A stretch of DNA of 64,000 nucleotides from Planoprotostelium fungivorum (lineage: Eukaryota; Evosea; Variosea; Cavosteliida; Cavosteliaceae). The DNA lies in the NCBI GenBank assembly GCA_003024175.1, contig MDYQ01000364.1, positions 1 to 64,000 on the forward strand, given 5' to 3'. Under the pieces are notes generated by a model, which worked only from the letters and a program-made list of their open reading frames with translations, had not been told where the DNA came from and did no database searches. A program made the position numbers and the translations under genes. The first letter of the stretch is position 1. Every line of letters starts with the position of its first letter. Positions 21,110 to 61,014 of the stretch are shown here, in pieces.

Positions 21110-23720
21110 CGTCGCGACGTGAAACGAGATAGACAGCTGGCTCCCCTTCCGCAAGAATTTGTCAACAATAAAATACCAGCGATGTCACGTCATTTTCTCG
21201 ACCAACCAGCATGAGAGCGTCTGTCCTCTTGATCTGCACTGTGTTCGCCCTCGTCGCTGCATCTGGAAAGAGAGGTGAGAGGGAGGATGCACAATGCGCG
21301 TCCGAATGTAGCTGATACCTGACCATCTCGCTAGGTCTTGGCATCGGCAGCCCATTCAATGCGTCTACCGACTTCAAGCCCTTTCAGGCCACAAAAGCAG
21401 TCTCTTGGTACTACAACTGGAGTCTGAAGCCCCTTCAGCCAGCTCCAAAATGCATCGAGTTCGTCCCCATGCAGTATAATGGCAACGGCATTGAAAACTT
21501 AGAGGTGAATGAGAGATGGATCCATCTTCACTGTACTCAGATGAGACAGAAAACTCTCTTGGCGCTGAAGGCCAATCGAGTGCTGGGATTCAACGAGCCA
21601 GACCAGCCAGCCAGCGTCGGAGGAACCAGCATGGACGCTCAGACAGCATGCAACTTGTGGATGAAGTATTTCGTTCCTCTGAAGACAAAGTATGGCATCA
21701 AGTTGGGACTCCCTGCAGTGTCTGCTGGCGGTCTGAGCTGGCTGAACAACTTCCTCATTGCCTGCCCCAATCACAAGGTTTGACATCATACAAACATGTT
21801 GGATTCTTTCTCACGCAGACAGGCCGACTTCTTACCCATCCACTGGTATGGTGCTCCTTTCTGGGGCGTATACGGTGAGTGCTTGCATCCATCGAGGTCT
21901 CATTCTACATCAGATTTCCTGTGGAGCTTCCACGGAAACCACCCTAACATCCCCGTCTGGGTCACAGAATGGGCCATCAACGACGTCACTGACTACCCCA
22001 CCATGGCGAATGGTTTATCCTCTACCGCCACCTATTTTGACGGTCTAGACTGGATCGAGAGGGTGAGATCATCATCTCTCCTCTCTTCATTTTATTGTCT
22101 GGCTAACGAATGCAGTACGCTTGGTTCGGCTCTTACCGTGCGAACCAAAACTGGGGTGAGACCATCCCCCTCCCATCATCATTCATCCATCTCGTCCATG
22201 TCTCTGAATCTCCACAGCCAACGCCGAATTATCTGCTACCGGAGCTCTCACTGCCGTCGGATCTACTTACGTCAACACACCATTCAACAACACCATCACC
22301 CTGTCTAAAACTGTCTGCCCGTCCTCCTCTGTATGATGATATGATGGAATAAATACGTTCTGCTATCTGCGTCTCTCAGCCGATCGTCGTGAACGGACCA
22401 TACTCTCATCTGTTCTTCGTGCTGAGATCTCAACAGGCTGGCTCTCATCGTCAGAGGTGATGATGTCTGTATGTAAAACGAGACAGACAGCTGGCTCCCC
22501 TTCCGCAAGAATTTGCCTCGGGGTTGTCAACAATAAATACCAGCGGGTCACGTCATTTTCTCGGGCGATCGGTAGCGAGCCAGCATGAGAGCGTCTGTCC
22601 TCTTAATTTGTACTATCTTTGCCCTCGTCGCTGCATCTGGAAAGAGAGGTGAGGCAGGATGCACAATGCGCGTCCGACTGTAGCTGATACCTGACCATCT
22701 GAGCAGGCCTCGGCATCGGCAGCCCATTCAATGCGTCTACCGACTTCAAGCCCTTTCAGGCCACAAAAGCAGTCTCTTGGTACTACAACTGGAGTCTGAA
22801 GCCCCTTCAACCCGCTCCCGCATGCATAGAGTTCGTCCCCATGCAGTTCAACGGCAATGATATTGAGAATTTAGAGGTGAATGAGATGTCCATTTTCGAT
22901 GGACTGAGATGAGACAGAAAACTCTCTTGGCGTTGAAGGCCAATCGGGTGCTGGGATTCAACGAGCCAGACCAGCCAGCCAGCGTCGGAGGAACCGCCAT
23001 GGACTATCAGACATCGTGCAACCTCTGGATGCAATACTTTGTTCCTCTGAAGACGAAGTACGGCATCAAGCTGGGACTTCCTGCAGTGTCTGCTGGCGGT
23101 CTTGGCTGGCTGAACAACTTCCTCACTGCCTGCCCCAACCATCAGGTTCGCATCATATCGTCACATTGAATTCTTTCTCACGCAGACAGGCCGACTTCTT
23201 ACCCATCCACTGGTATGGCACTCCCTTCTATGGTGTCTACGGTGAGCACCTGCATCCATCAAGATCTCATTCGACGTCAGATTTCTTGTGGAGCTTCCAC
23301 GGAAACCACCCTAACATCCCCGTCTGGGTCACAGAATGGGCCGTCAACAACGTCAACAACTACACTGTCATGGCCGACGATCTGAAATCCACCGCCACCT
23401 ACTTTGACAGTCTAGACTGGATCGAGAGGGTGAGATCATCATCTCGTCTCTCTTCATCTGACTCTCTGGCTAACGAGAGTAGTACGCTTGGTTCGGTTCT
23501 TACCGTGCCAACCAGGACTGGGGTGAGTCCAACACCCTCCCATCATCATTCACCCATCTTGTCCATGTCACATCATCTCACATCATCGTCCATCTTGTCC
23601 ACACAAGTCTGATCCTCTATAGCTAACGCCGAATTATCTGCTACCGGAGCTCTCACTGCCGTTGGAACTGCGTACATCAACACACCATTCAACAACACCA
23701 TCACCCTGTCTGAGACTGTG
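21110..23720 (+). repeat. Tandem duplication of the GH128 gene, unit about 1.37 kb
   Basis: Coding exons and the leader sequences are shared. ACAGCTGGCTCCCCTTCCGC and GTCACGTCATTTTCTCG precede both start codons at 21211 and 22585. The copy-1 3' end diverges abruptly near 22310. Confidence 0.85.
21211..22336 (+). CDS. GH128-type (Asl1-like) glycoside hydrolase, copy 1, no GPI tail
   Basis: The signal peptide MRASVLLICTVFALVAASGK is encoded in exon 1. Then AVSWYYNWSLKP and FVPMQYNGN follow, with the catalytic acid/base motif LGFNEPDQP (about 21585), the substrate strand PIHWYGAPF (about 21840) and the nucleophile motif VWVTEWAI (about 21960). This is the pattern of the glycosyl-hydrolase catalytic core of GH128, which cleaves beta-1,3-glucans such as fungal or own-wall polymers. 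Six short introns are visible. The protein ends shortly after KTVCPSSSV, so it lacks the hydrophobic C-terminus present in the second copy and should be freely secreted. AATAAA lies at 22348. Confidence 0.85.
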
Positions 23721-29102: not shown

Positions 29103-29738
29103 GTTGGAGATGAAGAGATGGTGTCTGATGAGATGTCAGATGAAGAAGGTACTGGGCCTGTGTATCGAAATAAGGTGTAAATAAACGTCCGCTACGATTT
29201 AATCTGTTTTAATCTCGAAACGCGTCGAATTCCATTTGATTCAACTCGGTTCACCGCAGTCGCCTCTATAGAACCACCGACACCTGCACCTCCGTGTCTC
29301 TCTCCTCTCAATCACTCTAACTTTCCACAATTGATAGATTCTAATAGGTGTCTCTGTTCAAAGTCCATTGACATTTCCGCCTCCGAAAGGTAGCTCACCC
29401 CACATCATCTCCTTCATCATCGTCCACAGACATATCCTCTGACACAACACAGCCGCAATCCTCTCTTCATCCCGCATCTATCTGCTCATGTTGACCACAT
29501 GCAGCACGTGCTGTTGCCGGGAATCTCTGCGGATTTCTGGTTCTACGCGAGTTTTCAGCACCTTTCGCTCTCCTGTCTCTTCAGCGCTTTCATTCGCTCG
29601 CCTCACCACGAAGAGACAACCCAACACAACCACACGACGCACGCACAACATCATCGTTCTATTTATACTTAAAGAACTACACACGGTGAGGGATCTTTAG
29701 AGGGGAAGAAGATCGACTTGCTGATATGCAAATATAGA
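29103..29738. other. Intergenic with pyrimidine-rich leader
   Basis: C/T-rich sequence with a CACGTG hexamer at about 29505 and TATTTATACTTAA at about 29660, the best TATA-like candidate for the downstream membrane protein gene. Confidence 0.4.
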
Positions 29739-30503
29739 ATGTCTACGATACCTGAACAAAACCTTCCTCCCCCAGCGCCCGCGCAGAAGCCAGCCACCAG
29801 ACGTCCGACGACTAGAAACATCCTCTATATCATCGTTATGAATGTCATCGGAGCCACCATCCTCGATGCAGGCATTAACTTGGGTATTGCTGCCGCTATG
29901 TATACCAACGCCTACCCCGTCCGAGTATGGGAGTTTCCCAACACAATGGCTGGAGACGCAGCCGTCACCGTCTTCATTCAAGGCATCCTCACGTGGGTCA
30001 TCAGTGGTATGCTCACCTCTCGCGATCTTCGTCTCGCCGCCTTTGGAATCTCACCCATCCGCGCCCCTCGCTCGATCAGAGAGGGACCCCGTATTGTCCA
30101 ATGGTTCTTTGGAGGCAACTTGGACATCCTCGAGAGACGTATCGGCCACTCTGAGAGATTGAGAAGACTCGTCTCTTCCATCGTCCACGGAGTCATCTAC
30201 TCCATTGCCATCTTCTTCATCGCCTGGCCCATTGGTGTCGGTATCTTGGCTGCCACCGCCGGACCCGGTGGTTTCATCGCTGGTTGGCCCACCGCTGCCT
30301 ACTTCAAGGCCGCCTTTGGAGGTGGTATGGGCTTCTGGCAGACACCTATCATCGTAGTCATTGCCATGATGAGAAAGGGATGGCCAGAGAGAGACGAGTA
30401 CGAGGCCAGAAAGATCGCCGACAAGATCAAGCACAAGCAAGGACAACAGACTGTCGTGAACGCCCCAGTTGCCTCAGACAGACTGCCACCTGTTTCGGTC
30501 TAA
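29739..30503 (+). CDS. Multipass membrane protein of the fungal DUF2456 type
   Basis: Intronless gene. An in-frame Met at 29718 also exists, but MSTIPEQNLPPP is the more natural start. Several hydrophobic segments follow: ILYIIVMNVIGATILDAGIN, DAAVTVFIQGILTWVISGML, IYSIAIFFIAWPIGVGILAA and a Gly-rich stretch YFKAAFGGGMGF. The conserved VWEFPNTMAGDAAVTVFIQG lies at about 29930. The length (about 254 aa) and segment order resemble a fungal membrane family (DUF2456) of unknown function, recalled from memory. The lack of introns is unlike its neighbours and fits either strong expression or acquisition. Confidence 0.65.
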   Translation: MSTIPEQNLPPPAPAQKPATRRPTTRNILYIIVMNVIGATILDAGINLGIAAAMYTNAYPVRVWEFPNTMAGDAAVTVFIQGILTWVISGMLTSRDLRLAAFGISPIRAPRSIREGPRIVQWFFGGNLDILERRIGHSERLRRLVSSIVHGVIYSIAIFFIAWPIGVGILAATAGPGGFIAGWPTAAYFKAAFGGGMGFWQTPIIVVIAMMRKGWPERDEYEARKIADKIKHKQGQQTVVNAPVASDRLPPVSV

Positions 30504-47151: not shown

Positions 47152-49732
47152 ATGGGCAACCAACAACCGGGTGGCACAGCACCTGCGAACCACAGATCAC
47201 CCAGAGGTCCAACGGCTTCAACAGCCAGACAGGCGCAGACTGGCCCCCACAATGAAGCACAAGCCAAACCCCACTCACATCACGCTCCAGCCGCACGTAC
47301 AGAGGCTTCACACGCCGAACAAAATAAAGAGAGAGCTCACACAACGAGACCGGCCGAAACGGTGAGTTATGGATGAGAAAATGATTCGTCTAACGGTGAA
47401 AATGTAGAAACCGACGACCACTGTGATCAAACAGGACGCTGACCGATACAATGATAACATTCCAGTGGAGATTCCCAGTGAAGACATTGAAACCTCAGAT
47501 TTTCTCGGAGAAGGAGTGTACAGTGAAGTCTACAAAGGTATCTCATCGTCTTTCAATGCATCTGGAGTTGACATTTCCAGGATATGTCTATGGAACCCAA
47601 GTAGCTGTGAAAAAATTCAAAAACCAAGGATTGGACCCAGCCGTCCTCCGTGAAATCAGAAAGGAAGTCGGTATCATGAGGTGATTGGACCATCTGACAT
47701 TGTCTTCGATACTGATTCCATGGAGGTCTCTTCGTCACCCCAACCTCCTCCTCTTCCTTGGAGCTTGTACAGAGAAGCCCGGACACCTCATGATCGTCAC
47801 CGAGTTGATGGAGACCTCGTTTCACGAGATGAACAGCGCAGATCTGATGACGAAACTGAAGAACGCACGTCTGGCAGCCAGAGGAATGTCGTGGCTCCAC
47901 TCTAGAACTCCCGTTATCATCCACAGGTGAGACATCCATCTTCATACACCATCACTCTTCTTACTCTCTATCGTATCCTTCAAACTTTCCTCTTCTCCTT
48001 CCCATCTCCTCTTTCCTCTTCCGCGTTGTTCTCCATCATCTCGACTCATTCTTCCATCAGAGATCTCAAGCCGGAAAACATTCTCGTGGACAGCACCGGT
48101 AGCGTCAAGGTTGCCGATTTCGGTCTGTCCCTCGTGAAGGACCACAGCAAGCAGGAAGCCGAGGAGATGAGAAAGATCAGAGGTTCCCCCGCTTTCATGA
48201 GCCCCGAAGCACTCCTGGGACAAGAATTGACACCCAAAGTGAGAGCGACCCATCTCATCATCACGACGCCATCATCTCATCACACGAACACATCATCATC
48301 GTCTTATCATCTCATCATACGACACATCATCGCTCGACCACCACCATCCAAACTGACACGATGATAGACCGACGTCTACAGCTTCGGTATGATCATGTGG
48401 GAGCTCGTCAGCAACAAGTCACCTTACGATGACCTCCACATCGAGAGCTTCGAGCAGCTGATCGACGTCATCTGCGTCAAGAAGATCCGAGAGAAGATTC
48501 CGGCTCACCTTCCCCCCACTCTACGTCAGCTCATCGAAGCCTGCTGGCAACCCGACCCCGCCCAGAGACCCACGTACGTAACTCGAAATCTCCTCGAAAT
48601 CTCACGTTCGCCAGCTTCTTGAACATCATCGTACTGCTCGAGACCGCCATCTTAGAGGCTGGTATAGAAGATAAGGAGGCCAGAGTGTGGTGGCAAAAGT
48701 GCTTCTCTCAAAACAACACGTTGAGGACAGACGTACCGTTCGAGACGTTCCTCATGCACTTGTCGAACCACCTACGAGTGGCTTCCAATTTGAAGATCTT
48801 CCAGGGATTGAGATCCATGTTGGGTGGGTGCATTTTATTTCATTTTATTCTCTCCGCACGATATCCCCCTCTCATTTCATTTTATTCTCCGTGGCGCACG
48901 ATAGGATGATTCGATCTATTTTATTTCATTTTAAACTCTTCGCAGTGAAGAACGATAGAGAGATCGTTCACATGGAAGACTTTGGAAACCTCCTCAAGTG
49001 GTTCGGTCCACTAGAAGAGCCAGAGAAGAATTTCCTCGGAACGGTGATTGTTCCCGGGAAATCACCCCCTGACTCGTTGTAGATGCAGAACCTCTTCAAC
49101 AAGAGGTGGTTCCACGGAGATGTCTCGCAGGAGTCCGCAGAGAACACTCTCGCTGGATCCGAGCCGGGCACCTACCTCATCCGTTTCTCATCGACTCCGG
49201 GTAATTTCGCCCTGTCTAAGGTAATGACGCCTGCATCATCTCATCACACGTGTCTCATCACATGATCTTTCATGAACACATCATATCATCCTCACATCAC
49301 ATCATCAACACATCACATCATCAACACATCACATCTCCAACATCACATCATCAACACATCACATCTCCAACATCACATCATCAACACATCACATCATCTA
49401 CAACACTAGACATCATCTACAACACTAGACAACAACAACAACACTGACAACCATTACAGGTAGTAGAGAACCAGAACAAGGAGAGGATGGTCCTCCACAT
49501 CCGTATCCCTCACACCGTAGGAAAGGGTTACAGCCTCACCCTCGATGGAACCACTCACCAATTCCCCTCCCTAGAGGAATTAGTCAAGACCCCCATCTTG
49601 CAGCTGGGCTCGGCTGCACCCGGATCAAAGTACTACGCCCAGTTGAGGTGAGACGCGGACACCATGAGGAGGATTAAGAGGTGCAGGTTGAAGCAGATCG
49701 TGACGGGCTACGTGAACACGGTGAACCAGTGA
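47152..49732 (+). CDS. SHK-type kinase with C-terminal SH2 domain
   Basis: Starts MGNQQPGGTAPANHR; Gly2 makes N-myristoylation plausible. The linker of about 70 residues is Ala/His/Thr-rich. The kinase follows: FLGEGVYSEVYKG (47500), VAVKKF, IVTELM, HRDLKPENILVD (about 48060), VADFGLSLV, GSPAFMSPEAL and CWQPDPAQRPT. The SH2 domain is in the last third: RWFHGDVSQESAENTL, the phosphotyrosine pocket motif TYLIRFS (about 49170) and HIRIPHTVGKGYSL. The order kinase then SH2 is that of Dictyostelium SHK1 (shkA) and relatives, dual-specificity kinases at the membrane that affect chemotaxis and phagocytosis. A last tiny intron (49649-49681) gives an end at GYVNTVNQ with AATAAA right after the stop. 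If it is not spliced, the protein stops at 49651. Confidence 0.92.
49255..49440 (+). repeat. Simple ATCACATC/ATCAACAC repeat in the SHK intron
   Basis: Several copies of a unit of about 30 bp (CATCATCAACACATCACATCTCCAA) lie inside the intron that splits the SH2 domain, followed by ACAACACTAGACATCATCT duplicates. Confidence 0.85.
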
Positions 49733-50089: not shown

Positions 50090-52643
50090 ATGTACCCGGA
50101 GTGTGACCCCAGACTCTATTGGGCCAATTGTTCCGAAGATTGGCAGTATCAATCGAGGATCTTCTATCTCGCACTCTGCATATGGAACTCGGTGACTCTG
50201 ATCACCATCTTCTCTCACGGTGCCTTCACATTCAGTCGTAAGGGATGGCCTCCGGTGACTCCAGAGATCCTCATCATCCCCATGGCAGTTGGAGGTCTCG
50301 TATTGGGTACTTACGCCTTCACAATGGCATGGGCTCATGGCTATTGGGGATACTTCTCTCCCGAGCTATTGGCCTCTCTTCCATTCGCCATCTCGATCGC
50401 GTGCCACCTCTCTCTATCATTTTTGATCGGATCACTCCAGACGGCGAAGGTGTCGGATCAGATGAGCCCGAAGGCTCTAAAGAGGACGGCCATGATTAAA
50501 TCGGTTATCGTTGGGGTGAGTGTCGGTTTTCGTCTAAACAACAACCATTTTAGATTGATCATCAATAGAGTATCCCCGTATTGGCCACGTTCGCAGGCGC
50601 AGCTTTCATTAGCAGGTATGGATGACATCTCTTACGTTCTCAATGGGGCCTCTATGGACACTTATTCAGATATCCTCAATGGAGTCGTTACAGCTACATC
50701 GTAACCACCGGTACAACTGCCTTTTTTGGCCTCATCTTCGTCGTCTACATGTCCATTGTCATCCGAAAGCTGAAGAGCATGAATCTCAAAGGCACAGTCA
50801 TCAAGAAGATGACATCTAAGTTGGTCCAAGCCGTCGTCTTCCAAGTGAGAATCTACATGTTCTATGTCCATGGACACATTATCATCTGTTGTGAGATGTA
50901 ATCATCTCACCTCCCCCAGACCATCTACGTCATAGCCGTCATCGTCCACGCCGCCGCTTACGATAACATCTTAAACATCGACTCCATCGGTGCATGGATG
51001 GGTGTCTATGCCGTCGAATATTTCGCGGGTACCTGGGGCATGGTCACTCTCACGTCTCTCTTAGAGAAGGAAGAGTTCACTTCGAAGGGTCTACAGAAGC
51101 TGAAACCCAGCATCATCATCTACATGGATGACACACCGGGCAGCACAGCTACCGTGGAGATTCAGACCATCGATTCCAGTATCGGTGAGTCTGAATGTGA
51201 ACATCACTTGATCACATCACGATCCATCATCATCGATCACCACGGTAACATCATGATGACATCCACCAGATGTGGACGTCAGAACTGCAAAGAGTCGATC
51301 CGTTCGATTCCCGGAAGCCAGTAAGACCAACAGCAACAGCGGTGGTGACAGTTCCGATGGAGGTAACCCTGACGCCTGCGTCGCCGGCCGTTGCCCCCCC
51401 GTCAAGGTACCCGCGAAATTTCCCCGAACCCCCGCTAAACCCTAAAACCAGATCGACGTACAGACCGCTCAGGAGCTCGCCCGGCCTCTTTGGAAGAATT
51501 GGCCCAAATCCATGAAGGACTTGTTTCGTTTCCCTCATCCTATCAATGAATGGGAGTGGAGAGCTGTCGCCACCTTCACTGGCATGATCGATGTCACTGT
51601 GCTGGTGGTGGGTGCAGCCAGGCCGGACGTCAACATCTGGTACCTGTATGCCATCATCGCGTACGGCTATCTGGTTCGTATCGCTTGCGGACCGAGGTTC
51701 GACATACAAGGTTGGGCCGTAGCTCTCCTCATCATGCCGTTATTACCCAAGTGAGTCATCGCGATGAGATCATCATCATCGTGATCGGATGATCTTGATA
51801 TGATGATCTCGATCTGATGATCTCGATCTGATGATCTCGATCTGATGATCTCGATCTGATGATCTCGATCTGATGATCTCGATCTGATGATCTCGATCTG
51901 ATGATCTCGATCTGATGATCTCGATCTGATGATCTCGATCTGATGATCTCGATCTGATGATCGTGATCTGATGATCTTGATGATGAAGTGGCGGTGACTG
52001 ATGAAGTACAGACCGATCTATGTCTCGGGATATCCAAAGAGATGGGGCCACTTTTTGTGTTTCGTCTTAGCCATCGGTGGTTTCTTGTGTTACGTCTGCG
52101 GACAACACACCGCCGGACAATTTTTCATCGCCGGGTTACTCATCGGTAACGCCTGCCAGGCTCTTCACTCGGTGAGTGTCATGAAGAGATGAGACAATCT
52201 CATCGTCATGGATCAACATCACCATGCGATCATCACCATGCGATCATCACGATGATCGAGATCACATCGAGATCACCATCCTATCGAGATGATCATCATG
52301 ATGACAATGTCTACAGGTGTGCTGGGCCTGCTTCTCATGGCATCTCTTTGTCGTCCTGGGTTTCGTCTCTGAAGACATCCGAATCGCCAGCCAGGCCGAA
52401 TTCGTCCGAAAGGGAGAAGCCACGGGCTACCGGTGAGTCCATCTACAACCAGCCGGATCTATATTTAGACTCTCCAGCTCCATGATGTGGGCGGCTTCAC
52501 CCAGGACAACCAGATCGAAGACTGGAGACTCGGAGAACAACAGCCTGCAGAACTCCATCAAGGCCTCGAATCGGTTAGAGATGAACGACTTGGAGAGGTC
52601 TGAGAATGGGAGCGAATCGCCGAACAATTCCGCTTCACCATAA
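50090..52643 (+). CDS. Seven-helix membrane protein fused to a DUF4395 membrane domain
   Basis: Nine exons. The N-terminal half starts MYPECDPRLYWANCSEDW at 50090 (no signal peptide, two Cys outside) and has seven hydrophobic helices, such as ILIIPMAVGGLVLGTYAFTM, IVTTGTTAFFGLIFVVYMSI and TIYVIAVIVHAAAYDNI. A hydrophilic linker with TNSNSGGDSSDGG and a CVAGRC motif spans 51270-51406. The intron 51407-51451 joins it in frame to IDVQTAQELARPLWKNWPKS. The DUF4395 domain follows: FPHPINEWEWRAVATFTGMI, GYLVRIACGPRFDIQGWAV, PKRWGHFLCFVLAIGG and the C-terminal CWACFSWHLF. DUF4395 is chiefly a bacterial membrane domain of unknown function. A Ser/Asn-rich tail ends at NNSASP. The frame is open through every junction. 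Confidence 0.8.
51795..51985 (+). repeat. 14-bp GATC-rich tandem repeat (GATGATCTCGATCT)n in an intron
   Basis: About 12-13 near-perfect copies of GATGATCTCGATCT fill the 51751-52011 intron of the 7TM-DUF4395 gene. Every unit contains two GATC tetramers, with slightly diverged units at both ends. Confidence 0.92.
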
Positions 52644-59305: not shown

Positions 59306-60375
59306 TCATCTCTGATTGTGGAATGGGTGGCCTGAAGTTGTTGGTTGCCACTTGAAATGCGATGTGGAACTCGGACCACTGTTTGGGAAACGGATACTCA
59401 TTCGTGAGTACCTCGTACAGGACAAGACGACCATTTTCTCGTTGTATTCCAATCCCGTGATCACTGAACCAGATGAGAACGGGCGTGAAAGGAAAGTAGC
59501 CTCACCTTCGGGTGCCATGAAGCGTGGTGTTCCCATGGTTCTCATGGTGGTATCTGTGGATGTCTCCTTGACCTAAAAGATGATTCAGGTGTCCCTCCTT
59601 CTAAATCGTTCGACACCCACCCTGGATAGACCAAAGTCGCTGATTTTGCCTTCTTCAGTGTGTCCATCAGGATGTTGGCGCTCTTGACGTCTCTGTGGAT
59701 GATGCCCTGATACCCGAGAACGTTGTAACCGTGAAGATAAGCCAGTCCCTTTGCGATAGACCTCATCCATGTGACGATATCGTATAGCGTCTGGTAATCG
59801 TGTCTCTTCTCGTGCAGCACTTTGTGCAGACTGCCGTTCCTACATAGGGGAAAAGCGAGGTACAGTCCATCCTCTTCCGTCGTGACGACCCCCATCAACC
59901 GGATGATGTTCTCGTGATGCAGCGTGGACAGCAGCTCTGCCTCTACCTTGATCTCTTCGATCGCATTGGCCATCGAGATCGACAGTGCATCCTGCGGATC
60001 TTCTTGATTGCCACCCTCGTTCGATGCAGCCTGCCAAAGAATCAGTACCGTCTGCTGCCGGGCTGAAATACCCAGGTCGATGTTGAGATCGGACAACTTC
60101 TCCAGTGTGACCAGTGACACTTCTGCCCTCTCTCTACCCTGAGAGCCGCTGCTGCCGCCCGCCGCAGACGAGCCTTTCATTTCCTTCTCTGTGGCCTGTA
60201 GCTCGGAGAGGATATTATCGAACGAAGGTCTCTGCTCTGGATCTTGATCCCAGCACCTCTGTACCAGTCGGACGAAGCGAGCAGGAAGGCCCTCGACTGA
60301 GGGAAGATGGGACGGATATTGTTGTGGACGACCGCGCGAGCCAATGTACCTTGTTGAGCGTACTCTGAGTAAGGA
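59306..60375 (-). pseudogene. Fragment of a tandem TKL-type kinase, both ends missing
   Basis: Read right to left: the tail of one kinase domain (VVHNNIRP, then, after a frame change of one base, LPARFVRLVQRCWDQDPEQR). A linker with SSAAGGSSGSQGRE leads to a second kinase, which has ELLSTLHHENIIRLMGVV, the catalytic loop IIHRDVKSANILMD, KISDFGLSR, MGTPRFMAPE and YEVLTNEYPFPKQW. The frame stops after VATNNFRPPIP near 59330. The glycine loop and VAIK strand of kinase 2 cannot be found, and the beginning of kinase 1 is not in the next 600 bp. This looks like a gene fragment cut inside two neighbouring kinase domains. A real gene with much longer introns is a weaker alternative. Confidence 0.6.
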
Positions 60376-61014
60376 GTCTTAGAATCTTTTTAGTTATAAA
60401 TAACAAAGAAGATTTCAGCACTTCGACGAATATAATACACTCATCAGCTCTGATTAAATAAAGGCTGATACCACATCCATCTACTCGTAATGGCAAAAGT
60501 TTATCCCTTCTGCAACGTTGAGCTGGGCACTAAGTTACATTGCAACCATCAATTTCGGCAGTGTAGTACGAGTGACACTGGCTGCGCGCCTTCTTTCTCG
60601 GTGCTCAAGATTATTCGCTCTGTTCTCTTCGCTGGTAGCAACGAAAAATTATCTGCCGATGGCTCGCTATTGCACAAACGAGCCTCGTCTGCTGACATTT
60701 GGATGAAACAAGTATCAGTAGCGTTTGGTGCGGAAGAGGCAGGAGGGCTCATTTTGAAAACTCGAGCTAATACGCGGACGTAAGGGTACATTATATGATT
60801 CTATTTATCAACGAGAGTATCTAGTCCATTTAAATCCAACCCAGCTATCAAATCACTCGTTAGGTAGAGGAAGGACTGCTATCCTTCTCCTCTTTATCCA
60901 TCCATAGTTCCACTTATGTACAGGCTCTTTGTCCCAGCACCGTCATTGCGAATTGGCTGTTGTAGATGGTGAGATTTTTATCGGGCTATCGGATCGATCA
61001 TCGTCATCAGCAAC
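60376..61014. other. Intergenic, no supported gene
   Basis: A plus-strand ORF at 60490-60783 and minus-strand ORFs exist but have no recognisable domain or splice context. TATGTACAGG and a C/T-rich leader lie just before the next gene. Confidence 0.4.

Follow-up and report, generated by a model that had tools for sequence, protein, structure and literature searches.

The 64,000-nucleotide stretch of Planoprotostelium fungivorum DNA analysed here (contig MDYQ01000364.1; hereafter the window) contains a nine-exon gene at 50090-52643 (+), with splicing at GT-AG signals, that encodes a protein of 596 residues. A preliminary description of this DNA had proposed a seven-helix receptor-like protein fused to a bacterial-type DUF4395 domain at this locus, and its coordinates for the gene were correct. 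All eight introns are of the GT-AG type, and our gene model was derived from these signals together with conservation. Exons 1-4 (50090-50515, 50569-50615, 50670-50844 and 50920-51184, +) encode a seven-helix module with an N-terminal CDPR..W..C cysteine pair and the start of a linker, as delimited by the spliced model, hydropathy and paralogs. They are followed by a first junction intron (intron 4, 51185-51269, +; 85 nt, phase 1, GTGAGT donor and CAG acceptor), by exon 5 (51270-51406, +), which encodes linker sequence with the cysteine pair CVAGRCPP (CVAGRC being residues 341-346), and by a second junction intron (intron 5, 51407-51451, +; 45 nt, phase 0). The length of the former is not divisible by three, and the latter introduces an in-frame stop if retained. 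The in-frame join by two introns described earlier is thus borne out, with the second lying exactly where it had been placed. DUF4395 (Pfam PF14340) is encoded by exons 6-8 (51452-51750, 52012-52171 and 52317-52432, +) and has a conserved VCWACFSWH motif, containing a CxxC, after its fourth helix; exon 9 (52478-52643, +) encodes the C-terminal tail and ends with the stop codon TAA at 52641-52643. Most of intron 6 in the spliced model (51751-52011, +) is taken up by a 14-nt tandem array, comprising 14.2 copies of GATCTGATGATCTC (51783-51981, +; 96% matches).

A Pfam scan of the window protein placed DUF4395 at residues 381-513 with 43.7 bits (gathering cut-off 24.5; E 4.3e-11) and found no other family above cut-off. 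Mean hydropathy over 8 of the 11 complete copies of this gene in the genome (see below) showed seven peaks in the first part of the protein and another four to five across DUF4395, counted with overlapping segments merged by eye, in agreement with the roughly 11 membrane passes proposed previously.

Other open frames in the window matched known families. Just upstream of the gene, frames at 48368-48622 and 49083-49220 (+) matched protein kinase and SH2 domains, respectively; they may be exons of one gene like the Shk kinases of Dictyostelium. Further matches were to a protein kinase domain (59545-60378, -), DUF2456 (29673-30500, +; E 5e-11) and a glycosyl hydrolase catalytic core (22908-23609, +; E 3e-7).

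The 7TM-DUF4395 family in the Planoprotostelium genome

Further fusions of this kind, for which a search had been proposed, were found in the same genome. We searched the assembly (36.86 Mb, 471 contigs) with the Pfam family, each half of the window protein, a divergent seven-helix half and a bacterial DUF4395, reading the matches exon by exon and scoring only the best candidates; the window's own split exons were absent from the matches of the Pfam-family search. Among the matches listed, 15 loci belonged to the family. Eleven of these are complete (the window copy on contig C329, C63, C66, two on C24, two on C268, C9, C90, C233 and C226), and three are cut by contig ends (the first copy on C24, the third on C268, and C371). 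The remaining locus, on C444 (102200-105200, L068), is missing roughly 0.5 kb from the region bounded by helix 6 and mid-DUF4395 (two aligned blocks lie ~50 nt apart, compared with ~560 nt in C233) and is probably a dead copy. Except at contig ends, neither DUF4395 nor the seven-helix stretch occurred alone among the matches listed. Since C371 and C226 are 97-99% identical, and C24 and C268 share stretches of 87-92% identity, some of the loci may be alleles of one another. Neither half had a relative in the viral contigs searched, DUF4395 had none in the phage records searched, and a first scan of genome contigs with amoebal rows gave no match. As the searches covered this assembly, bacterial genomes, viral contigs and phage records, further fusions of this kind may exist in other eukaryotes.

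The two halves almost certainly form one fused gene. The order of seven-helix module, linker and DUF4395 is the same in all 11 complete copies, the introns around the linker measure 38-139 nt across them, and the linker motif is conserved. The rival reading, that two neighbouring genes merely appear joined, draws on the nature of the models: all joins are splice predictions, and the paralog models come from scripted splicing with the window protein or a paralog as guide, a procedure biased towards an uninterrupted frame (the models of C9 and C268a also have gaps in the seven-helix part, and the linker of C90 is uncertain). As evidence for one gene that is independent of the guided joins, a methionine just before the conserved CDPR/DPR, present in 10 of 10 complete paralogs and in the cut copy C268c, lies outside the guided part or at its edge. 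In five of the 11 copies the unspliced frame does contain an in-frame ATG upstream of the linker cysteines, as two genes would allow, but it has none in the other six, including the window copy. In the window, where no such ATG precedes the cysteines before a stop is reached, linker and DUF4395 half would therefore have no start of their own.

The halves have also diverged jointly. Their distance matrices agree over the 11 copies (Mantel r 0.94; 0 of 20000 permutations) and over the eight divergent copies (r 0.84; 2 of 40320 orders, counting the true one). We computed dN/dS for seven copy pairs by region (helices, linker, DUF4395). Values were ~0.07-0.2 in all three regions for C24b/C268b, C24c/C268a and C24b/C24c, and ~0.09 in the helices and linker of C66/C24b and the linker of C66/C24c; they were 0.24-0.29 in the helices and DUF4395 of the window copy and C63, and 0.12 in the DUF4395 of C90/C233. 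Because dS was saturated in the remaining comparisons and linker dN was high in C90/C233 (0.50) and between the window copy and C63 (0.65), the evidence for constraint across the junction is limited to close pairs, in which linker dN/dS is well under 1. A phase 1 intron located 15 residues into DUF4395 is common to 10 of the 11 copies and absent from the window copy. We reject the two-gene reading, now extremely improbable, on the grounds of copy number, joint divergence, linker dN/dS in close pairs and the lack of an ATG in six of 11 copies; the single fused gene proposed in the preliminary description is supported on the same grounds.

The seven-helix half resembles receptors in helix number rather than in kinship. 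Loops 1, 3 and 5 are basic (mean Lys/Arg versus Asp/Glu over eight copies: 2.4/1.0, 4.0/1.1 and 5.9/0.9) and the N terminus is acidic (1.8 versus 3.5), so that the N terminus is predicted to lie outside and the linker to be cytosolic; loop 4 too is slightly basic (1.4 versus 0.4) and the linker as a whole slightly acidic (15.1 versus 18.7). The N-terminal CDPR..[WY]..C pair is found in nine of 11 copies, and both of its cysteines are absent together from C90 (L064) and C233 (L065), as would be expected if the two form a disulfide. When the seven-helix halves of seven of the 11 complete members were scanned against Pfam, seven families were matched, each in a single member and none shared; no GPCR family rose above noise (one at E 0.93), nor did the members agree on a transporter family. 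A profile of this half gave two matches in the PDB at E about 0.8 (best E 0.79). Assignment to a known family was accordingly rejected, as was the possibility that this half is a remote copy of DUF4395 (hhalign probability 0.07%). Of the earlier label 'seven-helix receptor-like', the seven predicted helices stand and kinship with receptors is unsupported: since there is neither a shared Pfam match nor a PDB chain better than E 0.79, 'receptor-like' describes the number of helices.

Bacterial relatives of the DUF4395 half and its cysteine pairs

The bacterial character of the second half, already noted from the sequence, is clear from profile comparison as well as from the Pfam match. Against 72 bacterial rows, a profile of seven amoebal DUF4395 copies aligned over its full length (36% identity across 151 columns; hhalign probability 100, E 6.1e-40), and FPHPVNE, GPRF, PGPPKRFAQ and the CxxC after transmembrane helix 4 (TM4) are retained in most amoebal copies. 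In a quick tree of 95 rows, made without bootstrap, the 11 amoebal domains formed one clade (SH-aLRT 100), which falls together with the FPNPVNE-carrying bacterial members in a group of 69 rows (SH-aLRT 95); long branches were flagged, and the clade has no fixed place within that group. The phylogeny against bacteria that had been called for thus yields a single amoebal clade and identifies no donor bacterium. By this tree, amoebal DUF4395 appears to group with the Actinomycetota/Chloroflexota (FPNPVNE) type, a closeness that is partly a product of selection, since the alignment used to retrieve the bacterial set held three amoebal rows. In tblastn searches, identity was 39% to a Tsukamurella member versus 25% to that of Thiothrix (E 0.5). 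DUF4395 scored above cut-off in 39 of the 101 sampled genomes from the phylum of a Chloroflexota member. Because the spread of DUF4395 is bacterial, transfer from bacteria to the amoeba is the likely direction, judged from a sample of bacterial relatives.

An AlphaFold model of a bacterial DUF4395 member, built with 72 sequences (pLDDT 87.9), shows four long helices plus a shorter helix at 59-71. Its first CxxC (131-134) begins a short helix right after TM4, and its second (151-154) lies in the tail helix. A Foldseek search of this model against solved structures gave no match at E 0.001 or better (best E 1.2), and the amoebal DUF4395 profile matched no PDB sequence up to E 10.

The cysteine pairs follow different patterns in the two groups. 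In the bacterial FPNPVNE rows, the CxxC after TM4 and a CxxC in the C-terminal tail are both invariant (72 of 72 aligned rows, from 80 loci after removal of near-copies and one mis-called row). The TM4 pair is likewise present in all 11 complete amoebal copies, and the tail of the same copies contains no cysteine over the 12-31 residues that each model reaches. Every amoebal copy instead has a cysteine pair in the linker, directly before DUF4395 (CX4C in ten, CX5C in C63), so that the CxxxxC-bearing linker reported for the window copy turns out to be a feature of the family. Such a pair was found in none of 46 rows of one bacterial set within the 80 residues before the domain, and in two of 80 rows of a second set, both times in long called starts of doubtful reality. 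Tail CX4C pairs occur in Thiothrix and Sulfurovum as well as in rows from Methylobacterium, from Microbacterium and from one genome in the phylum of G004, apparently Chloroflexota (CPGGVC twice, CAHGAC, CPGDTC and CQGEIC), and further bacterial groups carry only the TM4 pair. The CPGGVC of the Thiothrix tail is close to CAGGVC, the form found in the linkers of four amoebal copies. Because the charge-based topology puts the linker in the cytosol, the linker and TM4 pairs of the amoebal protein are both predicted to face the cytosol.

Gene context in bacteria was suggestive of thiol or sulfur chemistry in several groups. Among 97 same-strand neighbouring ORFs at 26 loci, several of which are close kin, Thioredoxin was the commonest family (10 of 97, as a raw count), and PALP (3) and rhodanese (2) also occurred. 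In one group, from the phylum of G004, a thioredoxin-like match lies behind DUF4395 in the same frame in five of five scanned proteins (E 9e-5 to 1.3e-3, all below Pfam's cut-off); four other DUF4395 proteins in that scan had no such match. At L207, L184, L181, L208 and L185, the bacterial DUF4395 protein continues into a thioredoxin/glutaredoxin-like match below threshold that contains an HPLCTDC motif. Members from the phylum of G004 also have PALP genes adjoining two DUF4395 genes and a JAB gene adjoining one. On a Thiothrix plasmid (L070:7651-8546), DUF4395 lies between genes for a GDCCVxC protein and a thioredoxin-domain protein; the GDCCVxC (seleno)protein gene overlaps the annotated start of the DUF4395 gene, and a literature search for GDCCVxC found no match. 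Plasmid copies are flanked in Microbacterium by thioredoxin, a metallo-beta-lactamase fold protein, TauE/SafE and rhodanese, and in M. ulcerans by cysK, cysE and thioredoxin; the Methylobacterium copy lies among copper and heavy-metal genes (a copper-binding protein, DUF411, a heavy-metal P-type ATPase). At the Sulfurovum locus nothing linked to thioredoxin or sulfur is annotated near DUF4395, and the same holds for the Tsukamurella locus, where a flavodoxin-domain gene is the only one of note; the Nocardia locus carried no annotation. Among 115 neighbouring ORFs at 46 mainly FPNPVNE loci (114 of 130 listed ORFs and one other), no family recurred at E 1e-5, with at most 4 of 115 for any of the best 25 of 108 families.

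A possible thiol-disulfide exchange module

Taken together, these data lead us to propose that an Actinomycetota/Chloroflexota-type DUF4395 was acquired once and fused behind a seven-helix module, and that the fused gene then multiplied; a single capture followed by these steps is probable. The resulting protein would consist of a seven-helix module with its N terminus outside, a cytosolic CX4C linker and a four-helix DUF4395 with its CxxC on the same cytosolic face. DUF4395 itself may be a membrane thiol-disulfide exchange module, in which electrons would pass between the CxxC after TM4 and another cysteine pair that is soluble. This second pair would be provided in bacteria by the C-terminal tail, a neighbouring thioredoxin or a fused thioredoxin-like domain, and in the amoeba by the linker. 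The seven-helix module may then couple a signal, a cargo or its outer cysteine pair to thiol exchange. Judged from the sequences compared here, what the cases share is the DUF4395 membrane CxxC; a second pair accompanies it often but not always. The most economical reading of this pattern is an exchange of thiols and disulfides on the cytosolic side, and the redox role guessed at in the preliminary description gains indirect support from the cysteine pattern and from the neighbours of some bacterial DUF4395 genes. Counting against the mechanism are the lack of a recurrent neighbour family at the mainly FPNPVNE loci, the type nearest to the amoebal domain, the Sulfurovum and Tsukamurella loci, the sub-threshold level of the fused thioredoxin matches and the failure of the bacterial model to match a solved structure. 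We hold the mechanism tentatively, at rather less than an even chance, and the complete account (one fused gene of about 11 passes, single capture, multiplication and exchange chemistry) at much the same strength.

The same four cysteines could equally hold a metal. The linker and TM4 pairs might form a site for zinc, copper or an iron-sulfur centre on the cytosolic face of a membrane protein that senses or handles metal. The CxxC-x16-CxxC arrangement of the bacterial FPNPVNE members, invariant in all 72 rows, has a spacing usual for metal knuckles, and the copper-binding protein, DUF411 and P-type ATPase around the Methylobacterium gene are consistent with such a role. However, several bacterial groups have only the TM4 pair, and since among these are genes that neighbour thioredoxin or are fused to a thioredoxin-like domain, redox chemistry fits better than a four-ligand site, which we consider unlikely. 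Another proposal is that the protein carries a thiol, persulfide or sulfane-sulfur compound across the membrane, with the cysteines as transient acceptors and the seven-helix part as a second carrier half. The rhodanese, metallo-beta-lactamase/rhodanese, TauE/SafE exporter, cysK and cysE neighbours point this way, as do the PALP genes (three of 97 neighbouring ORFs, and beside two of the members from the phylum of G004, with JAB beside one), but this sulfur context was seen in other bacterial groups than the type nearest to the amoebal domain, and with no consistent transporter match we find a carrier less likely again. Finally, the seven hydropathy peaks, the excess of Lys/Arg over Asp/Glu in loops 1, 3 and 5 and the acidic N terminus would suit a GPCR-like protein to which DUF4395 is appended for structure or targeting and contributes no chemistry. 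The lack of a GPCR family above noise in the seven members scanned (one at E 0.93) or of a PDB chain better than E 0.79, and the retention of the linker and TM4 cysteines in all 11 copies, make this improbable.

Returning to thiol-disulfide exchange, a bolder form of the proposal is that these proteins represent a new eukaryotic class, a seven-helix sensor wired to a captured bacterial thiol-disulfide module. Electrons would pass between the linker and DUF4395 pairs, such that the thiol redox state of the cell would set the state of the seven helices or, conversely, a ligand would set thiol exchange. We regard this as quite doubtful, if slightly less so than the appendage reading. DUF4395 is widespread in some bacteria as a domain of unknown function, for which the fusion hints at a membrane thiol-redox device. 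From the fusion and the bacterial context together, it may be that a second pair cooperates with the membrane CxxC of DUF4395, whether located N-terminal to it, C-terminal to it or in a partner protein. In this one eukaryotic genome, the bacterial-type membrane domain was found only within a fused, multiplied gene family.

A literature search that left most subscription papers outside its scope yielded no description of a 7TM-DUF4395 fusion, and the main text of a survey of amoebozoan GPCRs (PMC10445921) contains no 'DUF'. DUF4395 does appear as an entry in a published list of proteins exclusive to thermophilic Anaerolineaceae and in one published Deinococcus expression table.

Among known systems, the FPNPVNE-type proteins of Actinomycetota and Chloroflexota share the same domain at full length. 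They are stand-alone proteins, however (159-216 residues as called), with a CxxC in the C-terminal tail, whereas the amoebal proteins lack the tail pair and carry DUF4395 behind a seven-helix module and a cysteine-bearing linker. The CX4C (CPGGVC) of Thiothrix and Sulfurovum resembles that of the amoebal linker, but it lies behind the domain rather than in front of it, and the Thiothrix domain is more distant. The DUF4395-thioredoxin fusions from the phylum of G004 similarly place DUF4395 in one frame with another cysteine-pair module, although there the partner is a sub-threshold thioredoxin-like match behind the domain and not a seven-helix module before it. With the G-protein-coupled receptors of Amoebozoa the fusion shares seven helices and an N terminus predicted outside, but no match to a GPCR family or solved structure. 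In DsbD/CcdA and VKOR, a membrane cysteine pair works with a soluble pair. Although DUF4395 matches neither these, thioredoxin nor any other solved structure in sequence or fold, it is by analogy with DsbD/CcdA and VKOR that we propose the mechanism, with a predicted redox activity in which the linker pair would take the soluble part.
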